Shown piece by piece: positions 10,077 through 33,727 of a DNA stretch of 35,418 nucleotides. The notes under the pieces were generated by a model. That model did no database searches. It was not told the DNA's origin and saw nothing but the letters and a program-made list of their open reading frames with translations. The DNA comes from a virus: positions 1-35,418 of IMG/VR virus record IMGVR_UViG_3300047378_000175; one strand, given 5' to 3'. How positions within the stretch are numbered: the stretch's first letter is position 1; each line of letters begins with the position of its first letter. The translations under genes were made by a program, and so were the position numbers.

Positions 10077-11422
10077 GCTTTCCTTGATTTTGGATGTTTC
10101 TTCGGTAGTAAATCGTAATCCGTAGTGTATTTAGGATTCTGTGGTCTACCATTTCTTATTAAGTAGAGATAGGCATTAACCCTTGCAAAAGCCCACTGAG
10201 AAGCTGACCTAACTTTAGGGCTATGAGATGTGTTAAAAGCTCCAAGACCACGCTGAAAAACAGAGGCAAGGACAGCAGTAGTAACACCATAACCCAATTT
10301 ACCTTTATATTTCTTGTTGAATTCATCAGATTTCTTTTTAAGTGATGCTCTGTCTTTAGCAGAGACTTTAGCTCCTGTCTTTCCAGAAGCATCTCCTTTA
10401 GCAGACCCCTTACCTTTAGGACTCTTATTGGGAGTGTCAGACTTAGGTGCCTTAGGACTTGACTTAACATTACCTTTATCATCTACCTCAGCCATCTTAT
10501 CTTTTATCTCACCAAGACCCCTTAGCTTACTTCTACTCCAAGAAAGTGCCGATAATCCACCCCAAGCATCATACATTAACTTGCCACATCCATCAGAATA
10601 GCTCTTAGAAGCCTCTAAATCGCTTTTGTGACGAGAAAGGAAGGAGTACATCCTCTTTATCGTGGACACCGTTAGATTGGATTTTGATGCCAACTGGGAG
10701 GCTCTGCGTTTCCCCACAGCAGTTCCACAAGAACCCCAACCATTTTCATCAACATACTTCAACACTTTTTTAGCGTTATTTGAAACAGACTCAGGATAAT
10801 CGTTAAAAGTCTTTAGTTCGTACTTCTTAGAGTCAAGGAAGTCTTGTATTTCAAATAGAATCTCAGTAGCTTCATTCTCGTTTATATCGTCACCCATCTT
10901 AGACATCTCGAGTTTATCTGTGAAGTATCCTTCGATAGAGAATCCTTTTACTAATCCTGTCTTGACATAGTTCTCCCAGACTTCTTCATTGTTAACCTTC
11001 ATGGAAACCATCCAAGTACCTACTGGCATATCTAATCCATACTTTCTACTTTTATCATGGACTTCATCCTCTATAATCCAACTCTCCACTACAGTCAAAC
11101 CATTGAGTTCAGCTTCATGTTCCAATGTAGATTTATTCTGGTTGCCTCTCATTAGGAATAATTCACTTGCTTTTCTTACAGTATCGTCAGAGAAATAAAT
11201 GTAGTATTCATCTTCTCCGTCTGTACGATAAATATTCTTATTAGGAATTAGGGCAGCACCCATTAAGATGCGTTTCTCCTTATCTACCTCAGCAAGATTA
11301 ACTTTGGTTTGTTCTTTTAGAGCAATGAAGTTTTCTTCTATTGCAGGTTTATCTACAATAGATATAGCTTCTATTCCTGATAGTAAAGCATCCTCATCAA
11401 TAAGTAATTCTATAATTCTCAT
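10073..11422 (-). CDS. XkdF-like prohead maturation protease with two C-terminal domains
   Basis: 449 residues in three parts. Residues 1-175 look like the XkdF/S78-type phage protease: ISIVDKPAIEENFIAL, ILMGAALIPNKNIYR, TLEHEAEL with His102, and GLVKGFSIEG with Ser162, a plausible His/Ser pair. Residues about 195-305 hold a domain with GWGSCGTAVGKRRASQLAS and DGCGKLMYDAWGG, seen in Bacteroidetes phage head genes. After a Lys/Ser/Gly-rich linker, residues about 355-449 match a DUF5824-like domain (GLGAFNTSHSP, NAYLYLIRNGRPQNPKY, TDYDLLPKKHP). It lies upstream of the scaffold candidate and capsid, as expected. The role of the two extra domains is unknown. Confidence 0.8.
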   Translation of the reverse strand: MRIIELLIDEDALLSGIEAISIVDKPAIEENFIALKEQTKVNLAEVDKEKRILMGAALIPNKNIYRTDGEDEYYIYFSDDTVRKASELFLMRGNQNKSTLEHEAELNGLTVVESWIIEDEVHDKSRKYGLDMPVGTWMVSMKVNNEEVWENYVKTGLVKGFSIEGYFTDKLEMSKMGDDINENEATEILFEIQDFLDSKKYELKTFNDYPESVSNNAKKVLKYVDENGWGSCGTAVGKRRASQLASKSNLTVSTIKRMYSFLSRHKSDLEASKSYSDGCGKLMYDAWGGLSALSWSRSKLRGLGEIKDKMAEVDDKGNVKSSPKAPKSDTPNKSPKGKGSAKGDASGKTGAKVSAKDRASLKKKSDEFNKKYKGKLGYGVTTAVLASVFQRGLGAFNTSHSPKVRSASQWAFARVNAYLYLIRNGRPQNPKYTTDYDLLPKKHPKSRKA

Positions 11423-11432
11423 AATTTATTAT

Positions 11433-13475
11433 TTAAAATGCAGCGACATTAACTGTTTTATCTGCAATGTTATTATAGGTTTCTAAATCATCCCACACTA
11501 AATTAACTTTTTGTTCTTCTCTTGTTCTTGCTACAGCCATACTAAGTTGAGAGGTTTCTGACGCTCCTACTACGTTAAAATCAGGTGCTTCTACCGATGG
11601 AGCAGCTCCACCTACACCACCTCCACTACCACCACCAACAGGTAACTTGGTTGCTAATATTTTCTTCACTTGAAGAAATCCAAAAGCCGCAGTAGCTGCT
11701 GCTTGAGCAATATTCCATGGCCCGTATGGTTTAGCTCCAAGAGCAGCAGTAACAGCCTCATAAGTATTCATGGTAGCCATAGCTACAGATACAGCCTTAC
11801 CTAAAGCACTACCTTCCCCCGCTATTGCAGTTATAGCTTGTGCGACATAGTTAGCGGTGGCTAATTTAGCATCTGCTTCATCTCGGTCAATCTTTTTGTT
11901 TGTCTCAGCTAAAGCTTCTTTCGCATTAGTTATTTGTTGTTCTATGCCAATAGTTTCTTCTCCTGCTACAATAGCTGCTGTTCTTTGCCGTTCAAGGTTA
12001 TCTAAAATGTTTTCGGTCTTCGCTTTCTCTAATTCCTTTTGAGCATTTAGTTTGTCAAAATCATTACGAGCCATCGACATCTCAAAATTCTTATGAGCAA
12101 TTATTCTTTCATTGAGTCCTTTCTCAAGCAATTCCGTAGCTTTGTCTTCATCTCTAAGTCTACGGTCATTTACCTTTCTTTCTGTCTCTTTATCTATTTG
12201 TGATAGATATTCATTTAAAGATTGTCTTGATTCAGCTATAGCTTTATCAGCATCTATTTGTGCTTTAGCTCTATCTTTGTCATTCTTAATTGTGTTTACC
12301 TTTTGTTGTTGTCTTTCCGCAAAATCACTCTGTCTTAGCTTAGCTATTTCTTTTATAGCTTTAGCATTTATTTGAATTTGTTGGTCTTTATTTTTTCTTA
12401 GAGATGCAGAGACTCTAATTTGTGACTGCACTATCTCTTTATCGAAATCTAACTGCCCTGCTAAGAACCCCCTTCTAGTAGACTTACCTCCACCTATACC
12501 ATCTTTATCATAAAGTATTATAAATTCTTTTAAAACATCAATTCTTTCTTTTTCAGATTTTATAACTTCATTATTAGCATCTATTTTTGATTTAGCATTT
12601 TCAACAGCCTTTTGCGTATCAGAAAGTATAATATTAACACCAGATTTTTGTAATATTGTTCTTTTTTCTTGAATCTTATTAAATTCTTCTGTTAATTGAT
12701 TTTCATCAAGATTAACTTTTCTTAATGCTAGTATGTTTTCTGTTTCTTTTTCTACAATACCTGCTTGTATTTCTTGTATTTTACTTTGGGCAGCTTGAGA
12801 CATTGCTAAGTCTATTATAGATTCTCTATAATCGTTATTTGCTTTAGCAGCAGCCTCAGTCTTGTTTTTGACATCATCTAGAGATGTACTAGAATCGTCT
12901 AATTTCTGTATGTAATCAGGAAATTCCTTGTTCAGTTTTTTTATTGCTATTTCTTTTTGCTTATCACTTGATGTTGAAGACTCTAATACTGATATATAAG
13001 TTTCAAATCTACCAGAAGTGTCATCTACTTTAGACTTCATATCGTCAAAAGCTCCCGACAATTCATCAGCACCTTGTCTCAATTCTTTTATTTTTTTCGA
13101 TATCTGAGGTAGGAAAGATATAAGAAGTTGAATTCCTACCATGAGTCCACCTACTCCCATTAGGCTTTTTCCAACATCTTTAAGAGCGGCTGCAAATCCT
13201 CCTGAATTCTTAGCTGATATTTGGACTAAACTAACTAACTGACCTAAGTTATTAGCCATACCTTGAAATCCATAGGAAGCATCAGAAGCTAACCTACTAG
13301 TCTCAAGTAATATTGCATTGTTTAGACCAGACTCAGCCTTATTCTTCGAAGTTCTTCCCGCTAATTGTTCTGTGGATTTAGCTAACCCATCTATAGCTTT
13401 ACCTGTTTGATTTATGGTTCTAGTGGCGTTTTTATCCACCACCATGATATCCACCATTATCTTCTTACTTGCCAT
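11433..13475 (-). CDS. Tail tape measure protein
   Basis: 680 residues, long and helical. After an N-terminal VDKNATRTINQTGKAIDGLA segment there is a hydrophobic stretch at about residues 105-128 (MGVGGLMVGIQLLISFLP), long coiled-coil regions rich in Lys, Glu, Gln and Asn (about 170-560), a second hydrophobic segment with GAKPYGPWNIAQAAATAAFG (about 595-620) and a Gly-rich linker (GGGSGGGVGG). This plan is that of a tape measure, which sets tail length and is ejected with DNA. At roughly 1.5 angstrom per helical residue a tail near 100 nm is expected (inference). It overlaps the 48-residue gene by 11 nt. Confidence 0.8.
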   Translation of the reverse strand: MASKKIMVDIMVVDKNATRTINQTGKAIDGLAKSTEQLAGRTSKNKAESGLNNAILLETSRLASDASYGFQGMANNLGQLVSLVQISAKNSGGFAAALKDVGKSLMGVGGLMVGIQLLISFLPQISKKIKELRQGADELSGAFDDMKSKVDDTSGRFETYISVLESSTSSDKQKEIAIKKLNKEFPDYIQKLDDSSTSLDDVKNKTEAAAKANNDYRESIIDLAMSQAAQSKIQEIQAGIVEKETENILALRKVNLDENQLTEEFNKIQEKRTILQKSGVNIILSDTQKAVENAKSKIDANNEVIKSEKERIDVLKEFIILYDKDGIGGGKSTRRGFLAGQLDFDKEIVQSQIRVSASLRKNKDQQIQINAKAIKEIAKLRQSDFAERQQQKVNTIKNDKDRAKAQIDADKAIAESRQSLNEYLSQIDKETERKVNDRRLRDEDKATELLEKGLNERIIAHKNFEMSMARNDFDKLNAQKELEKAKTENILDNLERQRTAAIVAGEETIGIEQQITNAKEALAETNKKIDRDEADAKLATANYVAQAITAIAGEGSALGKAVSVAMATMNTYEAVTAALGAKPYGPWNIAQAAATAAFGFLQVKKILATKLPVGGGSGGGVGGAAPSVEAPDFNVVGASETSQLSMAVARTREEQKVNLVWDDLETYNNIADKTVNVAAF

Positions 13476-19237: not shown

Positions 19238-20000
19238 TATTTCTTATATGCTTTCTTAATCATTTGAGCCTCTAACTGGTTCTTCTCCTTTTCAAACACT
19301 AAATAGTTTAAACACTTGAAAAGCTCTTGTGAGGTAACGTCATCGAATTTGAGGACATCTCCTTTAGCAAGTGCGTAAATTGACTGATACCAACCCCACT
19401 TTGAGCTAAAGTTTCCTTGAGCTGAGAGGTCTGTGGATTCTTCCGCATCTCCATCTCCATATAATTCAGGGTAGCTAGAGACAACTCCTTCCCTAAATCG
19501 TAAAAAAAAACCATCGCCCCCATTACAACATCCATTGGCATCTCTTTTATGAGATTCTGAATGTCCTCATTTGGAGAGTAAGGAGCAATGGTATACTTAT
19601 CCTTAGATTTGAAATTAACTGGTCGGAAAAGCACTGCCATAGCTTTGTGCATTTGTTGCCAATCAGAAATTGTGTTTTCTAAGTCTATGTATTCTCCAAG
19701 TGAGATATCGTCAAGCTTCGGTATAAATCCCATTTCAACATCAAGAAGATTAAAGTTCCTGATTAAACTAGGCTTTTCTTTAAATGCTTCTCCAAGGATG
19801 TTTATAACCTTCTCTGCCTCTACCATCGGTATCTGTTCTACATCACGCAATGTAATGTTACAGAATATTTCAATGAGCTTCTTATTTAGAAATTCATCTG
19901 CTCCCTCATTTTCATCTGATATCTTAATGTACTTTTGGTATTGCCCAAGAGTAATATCATTGAGAGTTGTTGGAACTTCTAATTCAATCTTCTTTCTCAT
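19237..20000 (-). CDS. Tail assembly chaperone, -1 frameshift (G-T-like) product
   Basis: Frame 0 from 20000 to 19503 (166 codons), then a -1 slip on T-TTT-TTT continues as TTA CGA for 88 codons to TAA at 19237-19239, giving about 254 residues. The -1 frame is open from about 19557 but has no early ATG, so it needs frameshifting. Its end is clearly protein-like: SSKWGWYQSIYALAKGDVLK and LFKCLNYLVFEKEKNQLEA. The W-GWYxSIY-LA-G...YL-FEKEK pattern occurs in tail chaperone extensions of related phages. Lambda gpG/gpGT is the precedent. The true slip position and efficiency are not proven by sequence alone. Confidence 0.7.
19308..20000 (-). CDS. Tail assembly chaperone, unshifted (G-like) product
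   Basis: 230 residues. Starts MRKKIELEVPTTLNDITLGQ and continues YQKYIKISDENEGADEF, FCNITLRDVEQIPMVEAEKV and then DDISLGEYIDLENTISDWQQMHKAMAVLFRP in overlapping parts. The LxDITLGQYQKY and SLGEYIDLEN-W signatures mark a chaperone-like protein upstream of tail genes in Bacteroidetes phages. It is the first gene of the late unit behind promoter C. At residues 163-166 the gene reads ATG GTT TTT TTT TAC, a run of nine T (19502-19510) and a classic -1 slippage site. Unshifted translation ends at 19308. Confidence 0.75.
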   Translation of the reverse strand: MRKKIELEVPTTLNDITLGQYQKYIKISDENEGADEFLNKKLIEIFCNITLRDVEQIPMVEAEKVINILGEAFKEKPSLIRNFNLLDVEMGFIPKLDDISLGEYIDLENTISDWQQMHKAMAVLFRPVNFKSKDKYTIAPYSPNEDIQNLIKEMPMDVVMGAMVFFYDLGKELSLATLNYMEMEMRKNPQTSQLKETLAQSGVGISQFTHLLKEMSSNSMTLPHKSFSSV

Positions 20001-20024
20001 ATATTATAATAATTAAAAATCAAT

Positions 20025-20057
20025 AAAATGTACCTTAATAAATTGCAACTGTCTAAA
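20025..20057 (-). promoter_or_regulatory. Promoter C (late unit)
   Basis: On the minus strand TTTAGACAGTTGCA (20044-20057), an 11-nt gap, then TACATTTT (20025-20032), close to the Bacteroidetes -7 box TAnnTTTG. The predicted start near 20018 leaves an 18-nt leader before the ATG of the tail chaperone. Shares GrCAGTTrCA with promoters A and B. Likely drives the whole late region. Confidence 0.5.
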
Positions 20058-20092
20058 TGGCATATTAATATATATAGTTATATATATATAGA

Positions 20093-20177
20093 GTTACACT
20101 GTATAAAGTTACTCTATGTGTATATCATGTTACTCTGTGTGTATACTGTGTTACTCTATATATTGATATATTACTTG
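20093..20177. repeat. 21-nt-period GTTACTCT repeats
   Basis: GTTACTCT starts at 20108, 20129 and 20150, exactly 21 nt apart. The units continue with similar sequence (rTrTGTATAynnT). Degenerate copies are GTTACACT at 20093 and ATTACTTG at 20170. A 30-nt AT run precedes them (20061-20090). The period equals two helical turns, so bound proteins would align on one face. Fits either iterons of a replication origin or activator sites 75-140 nt upstream of promoter C. Confidence 0.75.
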
Positions 20178-20224
20178 AAATAAAAATAACTTTATACATC
20201 TATATGCCAAATAGGCACGTGCAA

Positions 20225-20479
20225 TTATTTATTGTATTTGTCGTGGAGAAAACAGTATAGCTCCCAGTATTTCATCTGTGAATCTTCAAAGGAATACCGT
20301 ACATCGCTTTTAGTGATGTTGCCAAATAGATTTACTTCGATTTGATAATCTTCCTGATTATACCTCTTCGGCACTAAAGAAACCTTAATGTTGTTATCTA
20401 TACACCATGAGCAACACTTCCATTGGTCTTTCCTGTAGATGCCAATAAAAAGTTCCTTTTTCTTTTTAGCTTTTCTCAT
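20225..20479 (-). CDS. 84-residue hypothetical protein
   Basis: Starts MRKAKKKKELFIGIYRK, followed by CCSWCIDNN (three Cys in five residues) and alternating strands (IKVSLVPKRYNQEDY, EVNLFGNITKS), ending in an aromatic helix YWELYCFLHDKYNK. No known family. It stands alone between a 289-nt non-coding leader and the repeat/promoter region, so it is expressed separately from the late operon. The basic start and Cys cluster permit a nucleic-acid or metal-binding role; it could be a regulator of the nearby late promoter, but nothing proves that. Confidence 0.6.
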   Translation of the reverse strand: MRKAKKKKELFIGIYRKDQWKCCSWCIDNNIKVSLVPKRYNQEDYQIEVNLFGNITKSDVRYSFEDSQMKYWELYCFLHDKYNK

Positions 20480-20768
20480 GGGTATTGCTAAGATACTAAA
20501 TAAATATTACTAATCCAAGTGGCAGGTGCAAAATGTGTTGTGTGTAGAGAGTAGTCTAATAAGCTACGACACTCGGTTTTCCGTCAGAGTACCTCAAATA
20601 AGCCTCTCTAACGAACGATAATTATCTCAGTGGGGTCTATGTATCATAATTATACAAAAGTCTCTCAAATGTGCCTCTAAATGCGTCTGAGAGGATACGA
20701 AGCTACCTTTTCAAGTCCTTTTTAATTCTCTTTTATTGATTTACAACCATTTAGCAAAATATAGGGTA
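20480..20768. other. Non-coding region with degenerate repeats
   Basis: About 290 nt without a convincing ORF. On the minus strand three related segments recur: GGCACATTTGAGAGACT (20660-20676), GGCTTATTTGAGGTACTCT (20586-20604) and AGCTTATTAGACTACTCTC (20547-20565). There is a perfect palindrome GATAATTATC near 20618-20627. A weak TATCTTAG box lies at 20488-20495, 20 nt below a TTG. Could be a leader, an untranslated RNA or a protein-binding region. Confidence 0.5.
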
Positions 20769-20795
20769 CAAAAAAACCGCCCATTAAGAGCGGTT
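20769..20795 (-). terminator. Rho-independent terminator
   Basis: Minus strand AACCGC, loop TCTTAATGG, GCGGTT, then TTTTTG. Lies 26 nt after the stop of the 49-residue gene and ends the small-ORF unit. Confidence 0.8.
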
Positions 20796-20820
20796 ATATT
20801 TAATTAATCAGTGGTAAGGT

Positions 20821-20970
20821 TTAATTTTGATTATCAAATCTATAGGATAAATCATTTAAGTATGTTTCCATGTGTTTAATGTTTTTATATTGTTGCCCAT
20901 AGAAAGTACAAATTTCTTTTAATTCCTTTTTGCTTTTTCTGTTATATTCGAATTGTTCCTTATTTGCCAT
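20821..20970 (-). CDS. 49-residue hypothetical protein
   Basis: Small ORF: ATG 20968-20970, TAA 20821-20823. Charged helical protein (EYNRKSKKELKEICTFYGQQ, then MET-LNDLSYRFDNQN). Its start lies inside the end of the 52-residue gene (11-nt overlap) and a terminator follows its stop, so it is the last gene of a unit. Function unknown. Confidence 0.5.
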   Translation of the reverse strand: MANKEQFEYNRKSKKELKEICTFYGQQYKNIKHMETYLNDLSYRFDNQN

Positions 20971-21118
20971 AATCAGTATAGGTTTTTACATATTCTCTAA
21001 AGTGTTTTTTATTTCTTGCTTTATTATTGGTATCGTATAGGTGCCGAACACATAAATTTTTATGTATTGTTGAATACTCAAAATAACCATGATTAACCTT
21101 TGTTATAAATATCTCCAT
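20960..21118 (-). CDS. 52-residue hypothetical protein
   Basis: ATG 21116-21118, TAA 20960-20962. Begins MEIFITKVNHGYFEYST and is basic and Tyr/His-rich (CVRHLYDTNNKARNKKHF). It starts 2 nt after the stop of the 97-residue gene and overlaps the next by 11 nt, so it belongs to the same transcript. No family recognised. Confidence 0.5.
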   Translation of the reverse strand: MEIFITKVNHGYFEYSTIHKNLCVRHLYDTNNKARNKKHFREYVKTYTDYGK

Positions 21119-21120
21119 GT

Positions 21121-21414
21121 TTATTTATTTAAGTTAGTTAATTTTATTTCCTTTGTTTTTATTTTGGTTCTTATTTCATCGGTGGACAAATTACCATAAT
21201 AAGCATTTGAATATAAAAACTCTTTTAAATATTTTATTGTGGTTCTTGAATAGTCCCAATAAAAAGAATCTAAATAAATAATGTTTTTGACGGTGTCAAT
21301 TTTGCAAATGATACTTTTATAAGACTGAAAAAATACTTTTGAGCCGTTTGTTATTTTAAATTGGTTTGGTACAGCGTTTCCGCTCCTAGTGCTTTTTAGT
21401 TGTGTTACTTTCAT
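21121..21414 (-). CDS. 97-residue hypothetical protein
   Basis: Basic protein with alternating strands: SGNAVPNQFKITNGSKVFFQ, SIICKIDTVKNIIYLDSFYW, then a helix DYSRTTIKYLKEFLY and a Lys/Thr-rich end. The layout suggests a small beta-alpha domain. Unrecognised. Gap of 2 nt to the next gene and 11 nt from the upstream gene support one operon of four small genes. Confidence 0.6.
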   Translation of the reverse strand: MKVTQLKSTRSGNAVPNQFKITNGSKVFFQSYKSIICKIDTVKNIIYLDSFYWDYSRTTIKYLKEFLYSNAYYGNLSTDEIRTKIKTKEIKLTNLNK

Positions 21415-21425
21415 TTTAATAGTTT

Positions 21426-21611
21426 TTAAGCGTTAATAATAATTTGAGTAAATACCCATATAAAAAAAGGTATAAATAAATAAAGAGCGTTTTTGCTCAC
21501 TTTGTCAATAGTTCGAATAATTTTTTTTTGTTCGAATGTGTCATCTAATATGCCGTAGGGGTCATTATTGAAAATTTCGTTTAATACTTGTTCTTTTGTT
21601 TTTTGTTTCAT
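21426..21611 (-). CDS. 61-residue membrane-anchored protein
   Basis: A charged N-terminal part (KQKTKEQVLNEIFNNDPYG, KKIIRTIDKVSKNA) is followed by a single C-terminal hydrophobic helix (LYLFIPFFIWVFTQIII, about residues 43-59). This is a tail-anchored layout with a cytoplasmic N-terminus. First gene of the small-ORF unit, 45 nt after a candidate promoter. Possibly a host-takeover or exclusion factor (inference only). Confidence 0.6.
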   Translation of the reverse strand: MKQKTKEQVLNEIFNNDPYGILDDTFEQKKIIRTIDKVSKNALYLFIPFFIWVFTQIIINA

Positions 21612-21642
21612 AATAATAAAATTAGTTAATATTTAATTTGCT

Positions 21643-21656
21643 TGTGATGTTTCACA
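21643..21656. promoter_or_regulatory. Candidate operator TGTGA-N4-TCACA
   Basis: Perfect 5-bp inverted repeat TGTGA TGTT TCACA between the candidate -7 box and the ATG of the 61-residue gene. The position would let a bound dimer block the promoter at 21660-21690. The site is short, so this is weak evidence. Confidence 0.35.
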
Positions 21657-21659
21657 TGT

Positions 21660-21690
21660 CAAAGTAAATACAGAAAGCCGAGAAAATCAA
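21660..21690 (-). promoter_or_regulatory. Candidate promoter of small-ORF unit
   Basis: On the minus strand TTG (21688-21690), a 21-nt gap, then TACTTTG (21660-21666), one base short of TAnnTTTG. It lacks the GrCAGTTrCA element. About 45 nt upstream of the first ATG of this unit. Confidence 0.3.
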
Positions 21691-21733
21691 CGCCATTTAT
21701 TATTTTAACAAAACTTTAACATTTGCCAAAACC

Positions 21734-21765
21734 AAAAGGGGAACGACATTTTCAGCCGAACCCCT
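21734..21765 (-). terminator. Terminator-like hairpin after methyltransferase unit
   Basis: Minus strand AGGGG TT CGGC, loop TGAAAAT, GTCG TT CCCCT, then TTT. Two short stems separated by a T-T internal loop. The upper arm overlaps the first copy of the 17-bp tandem repeat. Confidence 0.5.
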
Positions 21766-21826
21766 ATTGAATTCACACCCCTATTGAATTCACATTTTAG
21801 GGTATTGAATTTACACCTATTGAATT
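21761..21826. repeat. TATTGAATT direct repeats
   Basis: CCCCTATTGAATTCACA occurs twice in perfect tandem (21761-21777, 21778-21794). Two further copies of TATTGAATTTA follow at 21803 and 21818. The last overlaps the methyltransferase stop codon. Spacing of the cores is 17, 21 and 15 nt. Candidate protein-binding array. Confidence 0.75.
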
Positions 21827-22572
21827 TAAAACATCCTGAGCTGTGTTTTATATTTGTAGAGTCTTTTCTCTGCGAACTCTAAATATTTTTCTGATATCTC
21901 GCTCCCAATGTAATTCCTTTTAAGTAGTATTGAAGCTTTAGCAGTAGTGCCAGTTCCCATGAATGGGTCGTATATCAAGTCTCCCTCTTTCGAGAAGTAG
22001 TTAATGAAGTGTTTAGGTAGCCAATCACCAAAGGCAAAAGAATGGTTTCCAGTCTCCTTATCTGAGTTTACTGGTTTAATTATTAGATTCTTAATGTAAT
22101 CTCCATTGTGATTTGAGAAGTTACAATACTGGAAATTGTTTTTACTAGGGGTATCTTTAGATATACAAAATATATATTCTATTCCATTAGATACTCCAGT
22201 GTCAAGTATGGAGCTTGGGGGGTTGGATTTACACCAGAAAAACACGTGTTTTATTGAGTCTTTATATTCTGACATAATATGGTTTATAATTCCTTTGTTG
22301 CCAGAAACCTCTTGTATATTATAAAATACATGGTGTTTAGTTACCCTATACAATTCGTCTATCCACTTTGATGTCTGGGCAAAATATTCATCAACCTTTA
22401 GATTGTCGGAATAATCAGAATACTTTATTCTTTTGTTCTTCCAGTGTCCATTCCTACGAACATTTCCTATATTGTATGGAGGGGAGGTAACAACCACATC
22501 CACGAAGTTATCCTTCATTTTGGACATGGTTGTCAAACAATCCTCTTGATATATCTTGTTTATATCAATCAT
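21826..22572 (-). CDS. DNA N4/N6-methyltransferase, beta-class order
   Basis: 248 residues. The catalytic motif TSPPYN is near residue 29-34, and the AdoMet-binding motif DPFMGTGTTAKA comes late (about residues 202-213). The order catalytic then binding is the beta type. Also visible: YRVTKHHVFYNIQEVSGNKG and IGSEISEKYLEFAEKRL. It should methylate adenine N6 or cytosine N4; the specificity cannot be read. No cognate restriction enzyme is beside it, so protection of phage DNA from host nucleases is likely. Overlaps the ParB-like gene by 8 nt. Confidence 0.85.
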   Translation of the reverse strand: MIDINKIYQEDCLTTMSKMKDNFVDVVVTSPPYNIGNVRRNGHWKNKRIKYSDYSDNLKVDEYFAQTSKWIDELYRVTKHHVFYNIQEVSGNKGIINHIMSEYKDSIKHVFFWCKSNPPSSILDTGVSNGIEYIFCISKDTPSKNNFQYCNFSNHNGDYIKNLIIKPVNSDKETGNHSFAFGDWLPKHFINYFSKEGDLIYDPFMGTGTTAKASILLKRNYIGSEISEKYLEFAEKRLYKYKTQLRMF

Positions 22573-23365
22573 TACTAATTAACTTATTGAACTCAAAGTC
22601 TGTCATATTATAAATTTCTTGGAGTTTATCCTTGATATTCTCTCTGTGTTGTGTAATCATCTGTTTCTTTGATTTTAAATAACTTATATAACTATCAGCT
22701 CTACTTACAAAATCCTTAACATTGCCCTCTGATTTAAATTTAACTGACTTACCAAAAGCAACCACTCCAGATAAAGTGTGAGATGGAAATTTATATTTGA
22801 GTCTAAAATGTTTTGTCAACTGGTAAGTTGTTTGAGCAACTACCATTTCATTGAAAATTATAGTACCCTTTTTAAACTTCTCTTTATCCTTCACAAAGAT
22901 ACTGAGTATTTTGTCTAAAGATAAGCTACTTTCCTCCATTCTATTCTTTAGCATTTCATAATTAGGATATTGTTCATTGTCATACCCAAAATTTAACCAT
23001 GAATGAAGAAAGTCATTGAGAATCCATCCTTTACCAGTGGTGTTTAGTTTTGCGATTAAATCTATCACATCTCTTTTGGCATCACACTTAACAACTGACA
23101 CCTCTACTAAATCCTTTGGTTTCATCAATTTATAAATACCTGTTAATGTATGTTGTCCATCCCCGATAGCTCTTTTGTTTTTGTCATAATTCAAGATAAC
23201 TATAACTGGAAGTTTTATCAACCCATAGGTTAATATTGAATCTCTAATCCCACTTGCGTGGTTCTCCTTGATTTTTCTATTAAATGGTAATAGATTCTCT
23301 TGTTTAAGCAGTTCGCCTACTTCTTTTTTTGTGATTGTAATTGTTGATGTTTTGTAATGTTTCAT
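22565..23365 (-). CDS. ParB/sulfiredoxin-fold nuclease-like protein
   Basis: 266 residues. Residues about 25-90 have FNRKIKENHASGIRDSILTYG, LIKLPVIVILNYDKNKRAIG and the hallmark GDGQHTLTGIYKL, the N-terminal ParB (Srx-like) fold. No helix-turn-helix or centromere-binding region is evident; the rest is helical and basic. Such proteins occur next to or fused with DNA methyltransferases in phages, and the 8-nt overlap suggests the two act together. A CTPase or nuclease activity is possible; partitioning is unlikely in a lytic phage. Confidence 0.7.
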   Translation of the reverse strand: MKHYKTSTITITKKEVGELLKQENLLPFNRKIKENHASGIRDSILTYGLIKLPVIVILNYDKNKRAIGDGQHTLTGIYKLMKPKDLVEVSVVKCDAKRDVIDLIAKLNTTGKGWILNDFLHSWLNFGYDNEQYPNYEMLKNRMEESSLSLDKILSIFVKDKEKFKKGTIIFNEMVVAQTTYQLTKHFRLKYKFPSHTLSGVVAFGKSVKFKSEGNVKDFVSRADSYISYLKSKKQMITQHRENIKDKLQEIYNMTDFEFNKLISND

Positions 23366-26143: not shown

Positions 26144-26495
26144 CTTCTTCTGGTGTTATATCTATTGTCTTGGGTTTACTAAAGTCTATCACTGGTATAT
26201 TTACCTTGGTGTCTATATTTATATTCTGCTGTTCTTTCGGTCTACCATAACGATATTCAAGTAGCCACTTCATGTGTTGAACTGAACCATCCTTAGCTAA
26301 TTTGGCAACCTCTATCCAAGCCTTCTCCTCACTACCAAAAGCTTTCTTCATGGCATTTAGGGTCATCCCTGCAATATCTTTATCGGCAGTCTTACGAGGT
26401 CTACCTTGTCCTCTGGAGACACCTTTGACAGCACCGTTATTACGTCTGCCATCAACCTTCCTTTTCATTGGTCTTTTTTGTTCTTCATTATCCAT
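26121..26495 (-). CDS. terS: Terminase small subunit candidate
   Basis: 124 residues. The basic N-terminus has GVSRGQGRPRKTADKD, with a GRPRK AT-hook-like motif. A helical centre follows: TLNAMKKAFGSEEKAWIEVA and SVQHMKWLLEYRYGRPKEQQ. The acidic C-terminus could contact TerL. It precedes TerL with only the 45-residue gene between. This small basic/helical architecture with YRYGRPKE is common in phage small terminases; DNA recognition is inferred. Confidence 0.65.
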   Translation of the reverse strand: MDNEEQKRPMKRKVDGRRNNGAVKGVSRGQGRPRKTADKDIAGMTLNAMKKAFGSEEKAWIEVAKLAKDGSVQHMKWLLEYRYGRPKEQQNINIDTKVNIPVIDFSKPKTIDITPEEDGESKTD

Positions 26496-26916
26496 GAGAA
26501 ACCTCCAATCCTTTAATATGCTTTAATTCCTTATCTACGTCTCTAAATATATGGATAAGCTTCCTATGTTCAAACACCAATTCTTTATACTTCTCCCTGT
26601 AGTAACTATCAGGCTCAAGATATTTCTTAGGGTCATTTGTCAGCTTGTTAAGTATTCTTGATATTTTAGAGTAAGCCTTTATAAACTTAGAGTCATAAAG
26701 TAACACTACCTCTTCCATAGTTTTAACTCCATGAATTACCGTTGCATGATTTTTATTTATCTCTTTACCTATATCAGAATATCCAAACGAAGTGTAATCT
26801 CTTGCTAATTTATAATATAGGTTCCTGACGTAAACAACTTCTCTTATCCTTGTTGCCTGAGATATATCTATTTTAAATTCACTTTCTACTAATTCTCTAA
26901 TCTGTGATAATTCCAT
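26488..26916 (-). CDS. DnaA domain IV-like DNA-binding protein
   Basis: 142 residues. Residues about 20-75 read ATRIREVVYVRNLYYKLAR, DYTSFGYSDIGKEINKNHAT and VIHGVKTMEE. R-R--V--R---Y-LAR-T---Y--IG---N--HATV-HG is the DnaA C-terminal (TrpR-like) domain signature that reads DnaA boxes. The AAA+ ATPase of DnaA is absent, so it cannot melt DNA alone. It may direct host initiation factors to a phage origin, or compete with host DnaA. Gene overlaps on both sides (8 and 20 nt). Confidence 0.75.
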   Translation of the reverse strand: MELSQIRELVESEFKIDISQATRIREVVYVRNLYYKLARDYTSFGYSDIGKEINKNHATVIHGVKTMEEVVLLYDSKFIKAYSKISRILNKLTNDPKKYLEPDSYYREKYKELVFEHRKLIHIFRDVDKELKHIKGLEVSHG

Positions 26917-28827: not shown

Positions 28828-29093
28828 TTATCTAAATCTTTTTTTAATCGTTCAATATAACAAGCCCCATCTAAAAGTTCCTCTTGCAGATGCTGTAACC
28901 ATTGTAGTGTTGTAAGTTTACTATCATAGAGTGTGGTATCATATTTAGCGATACCTACTTTGCTTCTAACGGTAAGCAAATTCTTTACATCTTCAACTAT
29001 AGGGTCGCTAATATCCTTCAGTCTTTTAGTTACTCTTGGCTTTTTATCATAACTATCATTCATTGTCCACCATTTAGATATACTGTCTCCCAT
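28824..29093 (-). CDS. Small helical protein, MazG-like candidate
   Basis: 89 residues with VRSKVGIAKYDTTLYDSKLT followed by LQWLQHLQEELLDGACYIER. The pattern R--VG--KYGTTL...WLQH--EE-LDA--Y--R is widespread in phage proteins that some annotate as all-alpha NTP pyrophosphatases. Only part of the EExxD metal site is visible (EELLD), so the activity is uncertain. Confidence 0.6.
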   Translation of the reverse strand: MGDSISKWWTMNDSYDKKPRVTKRLKDISDPIVEDVKNLLTVRSKVGIAKYDTTLYDSKLTTLQWLQHLQEELLDGACYIERLKKDLDK

Positions 29094-29505: not shown

Positions 29506-29896
29506 ATACTTTCTTTAATTCGTTATGGATTCTATTTTTAAAACAAGGACTACAACTTGTAGGAATTGCTTTTTCATTGAACACTCTGTTAAATATATTT
29601 ATTAAATCTCTTTGAGTGCTTTGTGTTATAGAATTTTTATTGGCTACAAAATACTTATCTAAAAATTCATACTCTGGTTCTAAAAGACATTCCACTTTCT
29701 TATAAGGAAACATCTTATTTAAAAAATCCCGTCTCCTGTCGCATCCACAATCTTTTCCATCGGAGAGCCACTCTACTGCTTTTTTGATGCCAGTAGCTGT
29801 GGTTATCTTCTCAATAGTGTCTCCTAACCCTTTACTTGGTTTGCTTGTACTCTTGATAGTACTCTTTGGTTTTTTCCCTGACTTTTTGTTTGGCAT
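29471..29896 (-). CDS. Conserved Cys-containing protein of unknown function
   Basis: 141 residues. A basic Ser/Lys tail (residues 1-23) is followed by GLGDTIEKITTATGIKKAVE, KDCGCDRRRDFLNKMFPYKK and a late TSCSPCFKNRIHNELKKVY. The G-GDTIEK-T-ATGIK...GKDCGCD--R---N--FPY pattern recurs in Bacteroidetes phages. Cys pairs CGC and CSPC suggest metal binding. Overlaps the sigma-like gene by 65 nt, which is long but leaves no later start before the conserved part. Confidence 0.65.
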   Translation of the reverse strand: MPNKKSGKKPKSTIKSTSKPSKGLGDTIEKITTATGIKKAVEWLSDGKDCGCDRRRDFLNKMFPYKKVECLLEPEYEFLDKYFVANKNSITQSTQRDLINIFNRVFNEKAIPTSCSPCFKNRIHNELKKVYEQYKSDKEQK

Positions 29897-30368
29897 TACT
29901 AAGTGTGTTAAAAATTGAACTTAAACTTATCTTAGTTTCTCTTGCTATTCTTCTCATGCTCATTCTATTGTAGAAGTGTATATCCCATATCTTTTTATCG
30001 TACCAATACCAAGACGAAACAACACCATCTATTTCATCTACAAGTTTATTAAATGTATCTTCATTCTCATAATCTACAACACTAGATTCAACATCTATGG
30101 CATCGTTTAAAGGTAGGTGATGCTTATTTATTTCCTTATGAAACCCAGACAAGAATAAATTTCTAAGCGTAACATAAACGTAGTATGTGTTTACTTCTGA
30201 CTCGTTGTACATAATCTTATCTTTCTTATCTATGTACTTATTAAGTCTCACATACATCTCTTGAACCAATTCATGAGATTGTTCTTTAGTGCAACCAAAA
30301 GACTTTGCCATATTAACCCAGTCATTATGGTTCTTTGCCAATAAATCTATTAACCTCTCTTTTTCCAA
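29832..30368 (-). CDS. Sigma-70-like factor
   Basis: 178 residues, TTG start. Region-2-like helices are WVNMAKSFGCTKEQSHELVQ, EMYVRLNKY and VTLRNLFLSGFHKE. The C-terminal helix-turn-helix is MSMRRIARETKISLSSIFNT followed by LSNAKQKVREK, like sigma region 4. The two-part layout and size agree with small ECF-type factors. It could direct host RNA polymerase to phage promoters; the three GrCAGTTrCA promoters are candidates. A later ATG (MAKSFGC) exists but would remove region-2 residues. Confidence 0.65.
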   Translation of the reverse strand: MEKERLIDLLAKNHNDWVNMAKSFGCTKEQSHELVQEMYVRLNKYIDKKDKIMYNESEVNTYYVYVTLRNLFLSGFHKEINKHHLPLNDAIDVESSVVDYENEDTFNKLVDEIDGVVSSWYWYDKKIWDIHFYNRMSMRRIARETKISLSSIFNTLSNAKQKVREKTKEYYQEYKQTK

Positions 30369-30512: not shown

Positions 30513-30896
30513 TTAAACTGATTTAATTGTTACTTCTATCCTTGAGTTGCCTTTATCTATTCCCATATACTTAGCTGTTATATTTTTAACGATACTTGTA
30601 TCATCTGCTAATATACAACCACACATTACCATGGAATCTTGAAAGAACTTATCTACCACACTCACTACGTTCATTAAATCTCTAACTCTTTTATCAGGAG
30701 CATAGTACTTATAGTGAATAGATACTTCGCCACTAAATTCAAAGTCTAATTTATCCTGTATTAAATAATAGTAGTTACGTTTAACATTACCACTAACAGA
30801 GTGATGCCAATTCCTATACTGATTAAGATTTAAATACAGTTTCTTTTTTCCACTAAATGAATGAGTGGGTAAAGTAATTTTAACTTCTTTTGGCAT
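30513..30896 (-). CDS. RusA-like Holliday junction resolvase
   Basis: 127 residues, the usual RusA size. The N-terminal strand is followed by LNLNQYRNWHHSVSGNVKR. The core has YYAPDKRVRDLMNVVSVVDK, FFQDSMVMCGCILADDTSIV, supplying the Asp-x-x-Asn, Lys, Asp and paired Asp positions of RusA. It would cut four-way DNA junctions during recombination and before packaging. It overlaps the primase-helicase stop by 17 nt. Confidence 0.75.
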   Translation of the reverse strand: MPKEVKITLPTHSFSGKKKLYLNLNQYRNWHHSVSGNVKRNYYYLIQDKLDFEFSGEVSIHYKYYAPDKRVRDLMNVVSVVDKFFQDSMVMCGCILADDTSIVKNITAKYMGIDKGNSRIEVTIKSV

Positions 30897-32607
30897 CTAT
30901 ATCCGTAAACGGTGTTGAATTATTAAACATATACCTTTGTGTTTTAACATCAAAATGTATCCCATGGACTTCTTGTGGTATCCCTACTAACTTTTGTTTC
31001 TTTATCTTTTGACTGCCAAATATCACAGCAGTGTTAGAAAAATCTAATGCTCTCTCAGGTCTCCATATAAACATTACATTATCTGCCTTATCAGCGAATG
31101 TACCTCCACCTTTAATCTTATTTACATCTGGCTTAAAATACCTACCATCTTCACCTTTTGATGGAGTGACTTGATGAGCCACAAGGTGTATTGAAATGTT
31201 ATAGTCTAAAGCAAACCTTTTAAGCTCACTCATAAATCTACTTATATACAAATCCTCACGCTCACCTCTATTCATCTTATGTTGTACGGTATTGTATGGG
31301 TCTATAATAAGACTTCTAATACCTTTTGTCTTAACTAAATAACTCGCACGATGAAAAATGTTGTCAAGAGTAAAATCCTTTTTAGGGTATATCAAGAAGA
31401 AATGTTTCTTTACAAAATCCATGGCATCTCTATATTCACTGAGAGACATCTGATGACTTTTGTAGAATGGGTCGGCACTCTTACCCATATACATTTCAAT
31501 AATATCATTAAAGAAATCGTTCATTGGCATATTCTCAGGAGAGAACACTCCAAACTTCCAACCATCATAATACGATTTAATTGTTGCCAATTGATTAAGG
31601 AACATAGACTTTCCTTCGTTCTGATATCCTGTCCAAATATTTACCTCTCCATTTCTCCAAGTCCAAGCACTATCCACAGCAGGAATATAAGTTGTAGTTC
31701 CTCTCTCTTGACCATTGTGATATCCATCTAACATACTATCACTAACATCATCTACAGAAAAGATACCCTCAATCTTAGGGCTGTGAGCTATTTTAAGACG
31801 TTCTCTTAGACTTTCTACACCTTCTTGTATTAATACCTCATTAGCATCTTTAAACGGTCTTAAATCAACTAATTTACATTTATCAGCACCAAACCTACGG
31901 ACTAATTCTTTTTCTAAGTTTCTGCCATTATCATCATTATCTGTAGCTATGTAAACTATATTAGCGCGTTCAAACACGCTATAACAATTAGTAATACACT
32001 CTAATTTCTTGTCGATATTTTTATCGTTAACATTAGGAGCGCCCATGTTTACACTTGTGTGGAAAGGTATTCCTGCCACTTCCCATGACAAAGAATCCAT
32101 TTCACCTTCGCATATTACGATAGCATCTTGGTCTACACACCCATCATAGTTATAAATAACTGGTTCGGCATCTTTAGACTGCGTAAAGAATTTACCGTCA
32201 ATGCCTCTAGTTTTATAATTTACTATCTGTCTATCTACTAAATATGGAAAAACAATACTCTTGTTATCTACAGAGGAAACTATTTTATTGTTATCTATTA
32301 CTTCGTTTGTAATACCTCTTGAATTAAGAAACTTCCTACCATCTTTAGTTAGCTTTTTTAAATTACTTTTTTGTGGTTTCTTATAGCTTTTTTTTGTTTT
32401 ATTCATCTGAATACCTTTTGTTTTTAATACACCTTGCCATCCACACTTATGGCAATTATATAAACCTTCTTCTGTGTTTATACTTAAACAGGTGTCTTTA
32501 TAGTTTTCTTTGCCTAGCTTCAAGCAATTAGGGCATTGTACTTTTTGCTGTACACTGTTTCCTTTTAACCTAATGCCTAAACTACTAAAATTTTCTTCTA
32601 AAATCAT
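30880..32607 (-). CDS. Bifunctional primase-helicase (T7 gp4-like)
   Basis: 575 residues. N-terminal zinc ribbon with Cys25/28 and Cys52/55 (CPNC...CHKC). TOPRIM-type region at about 160-250 with VICEGEMDSLSW and VYIATDNDDNGR. The C-terminal RecA-like helicase has Walker A WTGYQNEGKSMFLNQ (about 330), Walker B SLIIDPYN, a His motif IHLVAHQVTPSKGEDG, and GGTFADKADNVMFIWRPE. It makes primers and unwinds DNA at the fork. It is the only replication enzyme visible, so the host polymerase must be recruited. Confidence 0.85.
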   Translation of the reverse strand: MILEENFSSLGIRLKGNSVQQKVQCPNCLKLGKENYKDTCLSINTEEGLYNCHKCGWQGVLKTKGIQMNKTKKSYKKPQKSNLKKLTKDGRKFLNSRGITNEVIDNNKIVSSVDNKSIVFPYLVDRQIVNYKTRGIDGKFFTQSKDAEPVIYNYDGCVDQDAIVICEGEMDSLSWEVAGIPFHTSVNMGAPNVNDKNIDKKLECITNCYSVFERANIVYIATDNDDNGRNLEKELVRRFGADKCKLVDLRPFKDANEVLIQEGVESLRERLKIAHSPKIEGIFSVDDVSDSMLDGYHNGQERGTTTYIPAVDSAWTWRNGEVNIWTGYQNEGKSMFLNQLATIKSYYDGWKFGVFSPENMPMNDFFNDIIEMYMGKSADPFYKSHQMSLSEYRDAMDFVKKHFFLIYPKKDFTLDNIFHRASYLVKTKGIRSLIIDPYNTVQHKMNRGEREDLYISRFMSELKRFALDYNISIHLVAHQVTPSKGEDGRYFKPDVNKIKGGGTFADKADNVMFIWRPERALDFSNTAVIFGSQKIKKQKLVGIPQEVHGIHFDVKTQRYMFNNSTPFTDIDAKRS

Positions 32608-32668
32608 TATACTGTATTATATAATTATAACATGGTATATATAGTTATTTATTTTTTATATATATATA

Positions 32669-32974
32669 CTATATAATATAATCTGTCATATTGGCAGTTG
32701 CAGATAATCTTATCTTACGTTCCTTTCCAAACCTACCACCTGTAGATTTCGTATCACGCTCTAGGAAGCCCTGTGCTTCTAGTTTAGACAGCATCCTATA
32801 TAAAGTCCTGTCTGATATGTTTAAAGTGTCGCAAATCGCTTTATTTGAAGCGTAGCAGTATCCTCTCTTCTTACTTAAACCCTTAATCAAGGAAAGTAAT
32901 GCACCTTCAGTTACTGTTAATGATTTATTCATGAATGCAACATTGATATTTATAAATTTAGTTTTCTTCTTCAT
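32669..32974 (-). CDS. Winged-helix DNA-binding protein
   Basis: 101 residues. ALLSLIKGLSKKRGYCYASN is followed by the helix-turn-helix AICDTLNISDRTLYRMLSKL and a basic wing (TKSTGGRFGKERKIRLSA), the arrangement of HTH_36/replication-initiator-like domains. It comes just before the primase-helicase with a 61-nt AT-rich gap (32608-32668). It could be an origin binder, or a regulator of early genes. Confidence 0.7.
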   Translation of the reverse strand: MKKKTKFININVAFMNKSLTVTEGALLSLIKGLSKKRGYCYASNKAICDTLNISDRTLYRMLSKLEAQGFLERDTKSTGGRFGKERKIRLSATANMTDYII

Positions 32975-33029: not shown

Positions 33030-33317
33030 TTAAAATGGCAATCCATCACCACTGAACTCTTTCTTTGGAGCTTGAGCGGTATCATTTTGATTCTTATTGC
33101 CCTCTGGCTTAAACTCATCAATCCAGATGTTGTGGGTCTGACCGTATTGAGTTTGCTCTTTTAAAGCTCCCATAGTCATTCTAAGGTATCTCTCACCCTT
33201 GTATTCAAACCAAGAGTCTTTTACTTTACTCTCAGGAATAGAAAAGTTAATTAAATCATAGTTCGATACTTTCTTACCGAATCCTACATACTTCTTTTGT
33301 TTAGCGTTATCGCTCAT
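33030..33317 (-). CDS. SSB-like protein
   Basis: 95 residues. A single OB-like beta domain (KYVGFGKKVSNYDLINFSIP, WFEYKGERYLRMTMGALKE) and an unstructured Asn/Gln/Lys linker end in GDGLPF. The terminal DGLPF resembles the acidic-hydrophobic tail (DDDIPF) by which bacterial SSB recruits partner proteins. This supports a phage SSB acting with the exonuclease and annealing protein. The OB domain is shorter than in bacterial SSB. Confidence 0.65.
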   Translation of the reverse strand: MSDNAKQKKYVGFGKKVSNYDLINFSIPESKVKDSWFEYKGERYLRMTMGALKEQTQYGQTHNIWIDEFKPEGNKNQNDTAQAPKKEFSGDGLPF

Positions 33318-33334
33318 AATTATAAAATTAAAGG

Positions 33335-33727
33335 TTAAATATTCTTTCTTTTAAAGTCATCAGACTCATCTTCTCCAAAGACTCCTAACTCATAGAATCC
33401 AGTCATCTTTAGAACCGCCCTACTCATAGCTCTCTTTTCTGCCATTTCCATGACATACCATGTGTTGCAGTTTCCATCTCTATGGGTCTCTCCTTTTAAG
33501 GCAGAACCAAAGGTTTCAATTTCTTTCTCGCCTTTACTAGCATTGGCTCTAACCACTGCAAAATTAGGCAAAGAATTGATTACATCATAGTTAATACTGA
33601 TTCCCTCAATAGCCTGTATCTTATCAATACCTGCCCTTGTGATAATCATATAGTGCTGATGCTTAAATACGTCATCAGAACTAAGGTCGTACTTCTTGTA
33701 GAGTTTTGATAGTTTTTCTCTATTCAT
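33335..33727 (-). CDS. Putative single-strand annealing protein (Rad52/Sak-like)
   Basis: 130 residues. Contains HYMIITRAGIDKIQAIEGIS, NYDVINSLPNFAVVRANAS, EIETFGSALKGE, and the helix YVMEMAEKRAMSRAVLKMTG followed by FYELGVFGEDES. The strand pair followed by an AEKRA-SRA helix resembles the Rad52-like fold of phage annealing proteins. It is the first gene behind promoter B and beside an SSB-like gene; with the RecE-like exonuclease this makes a recombination set. The assignment is by pattern only. Confidence 0.5.
   Translation of the reverse strand: MNREKLSKLYKKYDLSSDDVFKHQHYMIITRAGIDKIQAIEGISINYDVINSLPNFAVVRANASKGEKEIETFGSALKGETHRDGNCNTWYVMEMAEKRAMSRAVLKMTGFYELGVFGEDESDDFKRKNI

Follow-up and report, generated by a model that had tools for sequence, protein, structure and literature searches.

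To our knowledge, far-off second initiator-binding sites are known from few phages. For SPP1, the purpose of the second site is still a model, in which it is either another origin or a barrier that halts forks so that synthesis switches to concatemers. SPP1 is a lytic siphovirus of Bacillus in which gp38 (G38P) binds oriL, inside its own gene, as well as oriR, located 12-13 kb away in the late region, with each locus consisting of direct repeats and an AT-rich melting region, and gp38 bound at oriR is proposed to arrest replication forks and thereby set off concatemer synthesis (PMC6316719, PMC3485210). Phage lambda has a single origin, inside O, where iterons spaced 20, 24, and 23 nt apart lie right after the coding sequence of the DNA-binding domain of the initiator and adjoin an AT-rich tract. 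A plasmid initiator with a pfam13730 domain also supports replication (PMC5703833), and the RepA_N/pfam13730 plasmid initiators (pSK41, pPR9) place a winged-helix N-terminal domain on the A+T-rich Rep boxes of a single plasmid origin.

The locus described here lies in a window (the whole stretch of DNA analyzed, 35,418 nt) from a marine flavobacterial-type phage in which two distant repeat clusters probably bind the replication starter protein. The original prediction had pointed to three identical 8-mers at an exact 21-nt period, with two degenerate flanking copies and an adjacent AT-only run, in a non-coding region upstream of the late promoter, and had read them either as replication iterons or as an activator array. 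All predicted genes used in the analysis are oriented on the minus strand. The features of this first locus, site A, are as follows.

20001..20224, no strand: site A, the whole intergenic region (224 nt), with the window's second least stable 150-nt stretch
20077..20176, plus: full iteron array of site A, with GTTAT at 20077, GTTAC at 20093, 20108, 20129, and 20150, and ATTAC at 20170
20108-20115, 20129-20136, and 20150-20157 (span 20108..20157), plus: three copies of GTTACTCT, the core of site A, start spacing 21 and 21
20050..20062, plus: palindrome W2, TGTCTAAATGGCA (TGNC-N5-GNCA), followed toward the array by 13 nt of AT and then AGTTATATATATA
20205..20217, minus: palindrome W1, TGCCTATTTGGCA, with its AT arm toward the array
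20025..20057, minus: candidate late promoter of the Bacteroidota type (TTTAG-N20-TACATTTT), overlapping W2 and predicted from sequence only
19308..20000, minus: first late-operon gene, phrog_32199, of unknown function, lying downstream of site A in the compared relatives
20225..20479, minus: 84-aa gene, upstream of site A in close relatives

The positions and spacing of the three 8-mers were reproduced, and the degenerate copies were located as GTTACAC at 20093 (spacing 15) and ATTACT at 20170 (spacing 20). Because the flanking copies sit at these other spacings, the predicted 21-nt phase holds for the three core units and covers only that part of the array. The AT-only run is present beside the array, and the location between genes 19308-20000 and 20225-20479 is indeed non-coding. 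GTTACTCT is the sole 8-mer in the 35.4 kb having three copies at a constant spacing of 12-40 nt, and the window's only other exact copy of it, at 29029, falls within a gene. Constant-spacing 8-mer triples arose in none of 200 dinucleotide-preserving shuffles of the window, and shuffling of the local 224 nt yielded such a triple in 0.055% of shuffles. Tandem Repeats Finder independently detected the array (20108-20159, period 21, score 76), and its GTWAC-centered sites are imperfect dyads (arms 4, 2, 4, and 5 of 7; P ~0.02). A pattern scan for three GTTACT units at 21 nt returned 119 stretches among viral contigs, of which L036 is from the contig that also gave L123 and L054 is probably the window itself. 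A phage collection searched with the window DNA contained nothing similar, and searches for Rfam families and tRNAs gave zero matches.

The array is bracketed by W1 and W2, two 13-bp TGNC-N5-GNCA palindromes situated ~155 bp apart with their AT arms pointing inward, and W1 together with the W2 arm forms a 52-nt imperfect inverted repeat. W2 is kept in most of the array clade. Gene 19308-20000 opens the structural operon, and the array occupies the gap upstream of it. W1 and a third palindrome of the same type, W3, were also considered as promoters, a reading that was rejected since neither of them shows a conserved TTTG element.

W3 belongs to a second locus, site B, which lies directly after the winged-helix gene that the original prediction had named as one possible source of the array-binding protein. 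This locus is 12.5 kb from site A and comprises the following features.

32605..32696, minus: site B, palindrome W3 plus an AT-rich dyad region, at the window's least stable 150-nt stretch
32684-32696: palindrome W3, TGCCAATATGACA, in the 3' end of the winged-helix gene
32669..32974, minus: 101-aa winged-helix protein, the likely iteron-binding initiator (predicted), HTH_36 (PF13730), PHROG replication initiation families
30880..32607, minus: primase-helicase fusion, immediately downstream of site B; DnaB-like, with a zinc finger and TOPRIM domain seen by eye

Only W3 overlaps the gene end, and an AT-rich stretch separates it from the primase-helicase gene. The winged-helix protein matched Pfam PF13730 (HTH_36) with 36.3 bits against a curated cutoff of 25, and its PHROG matches are to replication initiation families, with O-like matches at E 1e-8 and weaker. 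A fold search with a structure model of pLDDT 76 gave 4pql, 5kbj, and 4pt7 as the best PDB matches, at modest TM-scores of ~0.5; according to their titles, 5kbj is a Rep-DNA complex, 4pt7 is an initiator, and 4pql is a DNA-binding protein only. Scans with the winged-helix family retrieved many relatives, and in several lineages a near-palindromic repeat cluster begins right at the end of the winged-helix gene, with the distant relatives L248 and L251 likewise having palindromic repeats after the winged-helix domain. In L248, L249, L251, and L252, these distant genes are followed by ATGACA-N4-TGTCAT repeats within CCCC runs, which is a lambda-O-like layout. A TGCC-N5-GGCA-type palindrome at the winged-helix 3' end (32684-32696 in the window; L209-L316) is kept in many lineages despite changed residues.

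Of all 150-nt stretches in the window, the least stable starts at 32563, at site B, and the next least stable starts at 20054, at site A. The original prediction had proposed GC skew as a test of origin activity. Since the skew shows no change of sign at the array, it lends no support to a bidirectional origin at A, and it is compatible with a unidirectional one.

A scan with the protein encoded at 19308-20000 identified 52 loci. Conservation in close relatives, upon which the original prediction had staked itself, was found: the relatives closest in this protein have the array at the same place, and overall its position is conserved in >20 relatives. One of these, L121, has exactly one 21-nt unit more, and 176 bp separate its palindromes. 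The array of L122, L124-L126, and L128-L129 is of a second type, in which GTWAC recurs at spacings near 20, 21, and 15. This array is absent from more distant relatives (~31-45% late-protein identity). The winged-helix gene is present in the array genomes with enough sequence and was not found in the array-less genomes tested, including relatives having a homologous late gene. Of the 9 array-less relatives fetched, 8 lacked any primase-helicase match, and G027, the ninth, had one of only 26% identity. Because the array genomes form a single clade in the late-gene tree, the co-occurrence of array and winged-helix gene counts as one evolutionary event.

The comparison of sites A and B was made with contigs containing both the late gene and the winged-helix gene. 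In the relatives, the two sites carry one lineage-specific repeat that differs between lineages. Across nine lineages, 9-mer sharing between a genome's own A and own B was 0.108 versus 0.022 for foreign pairs, and none of 100,000 permutations was as high. A variant of this test with the palindromes masked was set aside, since letters that are masked can match one another. For example, the G105 repeat TACATARAGTATTATA occurs at A (11372-11472) and at B (22728-22809), the G094 repeat TACATAGTGTATTATA has 3 copies at B, 5 at A, and zero elsewhere in 34.3 kb, the G057 repeat ATACATGTTAT has two exact copies at A plus two at B and no further exact copy, and the repeat common to A and B in G048 is ATACATATTAT. 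By pattern searches, the repeats in these 22-38 kb contigs are confined to the A and B clusters, the exception being one two-mismatch stray in G105. Four genomes with no late gene found in the record (G099, G104, G106, and G107) have the B cluster only. The A-B distance was 10.8-13.2 kb in 17 genomes, with two permuted contigs wrapped. The site A array is half of a paired, co-evolving two-cluster system in the relatives. For the window itself the A-B link rests upon the relatives, because the GTTACTCT unit is absent from its own site B and the best word common to its two sites is merely ATAACTATATATA, weaker than in the relatives. Since the iteron changes occur at both sites together, the many lineages with changed iterons suggest that selection keeps the distant site matched to the initiator. 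These co-changing lineages make the role of the second site testable by swapping sites or initiators between constructs, and the paired-iteron layout provides a simple rule for locating origins in uncultured marine phages.

We consider it likely that the array consists of iterons and that site A is a second initiator-binding locus in the phage replication system. The small winged-helix initiator (32669-32974) would bind these iterons as a dimer at A and at the smaller B. Each site pairs binding sites with very unstable AT-rich DNA, at which the strands would open, and the adjacent primase-helicase would be loaded at both. By analogy with SPP1, B may be the early origin and A either another origin or a protein-DNA barrier at which forks stall, leading to a switch to concatemer synthesis; the putative roles of A are a firing origin, a fork staller, and a late-gene regulator. 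One observation that counts against this reading comes from G031, which has TGNC-N5-GNCA palindromes at site A and in which no winged-helix relative was detected. There are three of these palindromes (L151; contig 32326-32382), recurring every 22 nt immediately upstream of the same late gene. A simple word count showed no iteron-like cluster in Tenacibaculum phage JQ, whose primase-helicase is 48% identical.

The observation behind the original prediction is right, and its origin reading is strengthened and extended; it had not included the second site, the palindromes on either side of the array, or the likeness to SPP1. As in SPP1, one locus lies at the initiator gene and the other in a non-coding gap of the late region, the two distant loci have the same direct repeats (in the relatives, and weakly in the window itself), and each has an AT-rich element predicted to unwind, here the two least stable stretches. 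The 10.8-13.2 kb between A and B compares with the 12-13 kb of SPP1, and genes for a RusA-type resolvase and a RecE-type exonuclease are likewise present in the window. The proteins encoded at 33335-33727 and 33030-33317 had zero PHROG matches; from gene order and look, our guess is an annealase and a single-strand-binding protein. Unlike SPP1, where one locus is inside the initiator gene, B follows that gene, with only W3 overlapping its end. Further differences are that the putative initiator consists of a single 101-aa winged helix, that helicase and primase form one protein, and that site A directly precedes the late operon. The position of iterons right after the coding sequence of a DNA-binding domain, the adjoining AT-rich tract, and the 21-nt spacing all recall the lambda origin. 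In contrast to lambda, however, the array is far from the winged-helix gene and B follows that gene. Aligning the winged-helix family with lambda O by hhalign gave no match (probability 0.9%), set against the O-like PHROG matches. The RepA_N/pfam13730 plasmid initiators share the winged-helix domain, and the best fold matches include a Rep-DNA complex and an initiator, but here there is no C-terminal primase-binding domain, and there are two phage loci instead of one plasmid origin.

As for the protein that binds the array, candidates were compared across mosaic genomes. The array core of the type-2 genomes (G002, G005, and G009) is 94-97% identical to each other and 74-77% to the window, and array type follows the winged-helix gene, which is 96-100 among these genomes versus 82-86 to the window. 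The late gene has a different pattern (window-G002 98%), and the 60-nt late promoter does not follow the array either (window-G002 90%, G002-G005 76%). The DnaA-like protein (26488-26916), the other binder originally proposed, is 96% identical between the window and G002 despite their different arrays and 40% between G002 and G005 despite their near-identical arrays, and the sigma-like protein likewise departs from the array pattern. Since 5 of 19 genes fit the type-2 pattern, the comparison mainly excludes candidates, and the winged-helix concordance is modest evidence. The winged-helix protein is favored as the putative binder by the relatives, in which the same repeat clusters only at A and directly after its gene.

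The main rival is late-gene control by this same winged-helix protein. Such control and the two-locus initiator account can both hold, and it is possible, if tentative, that the initiator itself controls late transcription from A, which would then be a second origin or fork barrier as well as a late-operon switch, coupling replication to the early-to-late switch. Somewhat less likely is a purely transcriptional array, in which the protein would bind B to autoregulate the primase operon and A to activate or repress the late genes, with A having no origin function. A is immediately upstream of the first late gene in the array genomes examined, W2 overlaps the -33 region of the candidate late promoter, and MarR/PadR regulators are also typically winged-helix. 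However, the PHROG and best fold matches are mainly replication initiators, the homologous late operon runs without the array in relatives missing the winged-helix gene, late promoter and array core recombine separately, and the iterons were not seen at other promoters in the relatives searched. Of the two readings first offered for the repeats, iterons of an origin are therefore favored over an activator array for late genes.

In a further alternative, the A and B iterons would be a copy-control or handcuffing pair in the style of iteron plasmids, or a cis element like P4 crr, with A titrating the initiator or looping to B. We regard this as improbable: it fits the presence of one iteron in two clusters whose distance is roughly constant, but no integrase was seen by inspection and there was no sign of plasmid-like maintenance. 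Still harder to credit is binding of the array by the DnaA-like protein or by host DnaA. This protein matches Pfam Bac_DnaA_C (E 2e-11) and two array units match TTATNCACA at 8 of 9 positions, but its identity does not track array type, it is present in array-less relatives, and the iterons of other lineages are unlike a DnaA box. DnaA boxes are also unenriched, with no exact TTATNCACA at the array and a window total below that of shuffles. A functionless chance tandem duplication, which the AT-rich background and variable copy number might accommodate, is the least probable of all, as it is contradicted by the covariation of A with B and stands against the shuffles and the position conserved in >20 relatives.

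Several further features were noted. The DnaA-like protein is a stand-alone DnaA C-terminal DNA-binding domain, without an ATPase domain, and has relatives in many of these phages. The small protein at 29832-30368 has the look, by eye, of an ECF-type sigma factor (Sigma70_r4_2 at only E 0.012) and is possibly a late-gene sigma factor. Both contig ends of G092 (37967 bases) carry the late gene and site A, ~36.08 kb apart, which suggests a circular map of ~36.08 kb. Several contigs end just upstream of the 84-aa gene. A reading of the clustered contig ends upstream of the late gene as genome ends was rejected, as the gene map instead reveals that contigs are permuted and that the accessory region varies. 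The non-coding 641-nt stretch at 20480-21120 lacks an Rfam match and contains a strong terminator (20775-20795, minus). The accessory region at 21121-23365, encoding a ParB-like protein, a DNA methylase, and small genes, varies among close relatives, and just 3' of the DNA methylase gene is a 17-nt perfect tandem duplication, two copies of ACCCCTATTGAATTCAC at 21760-21794.
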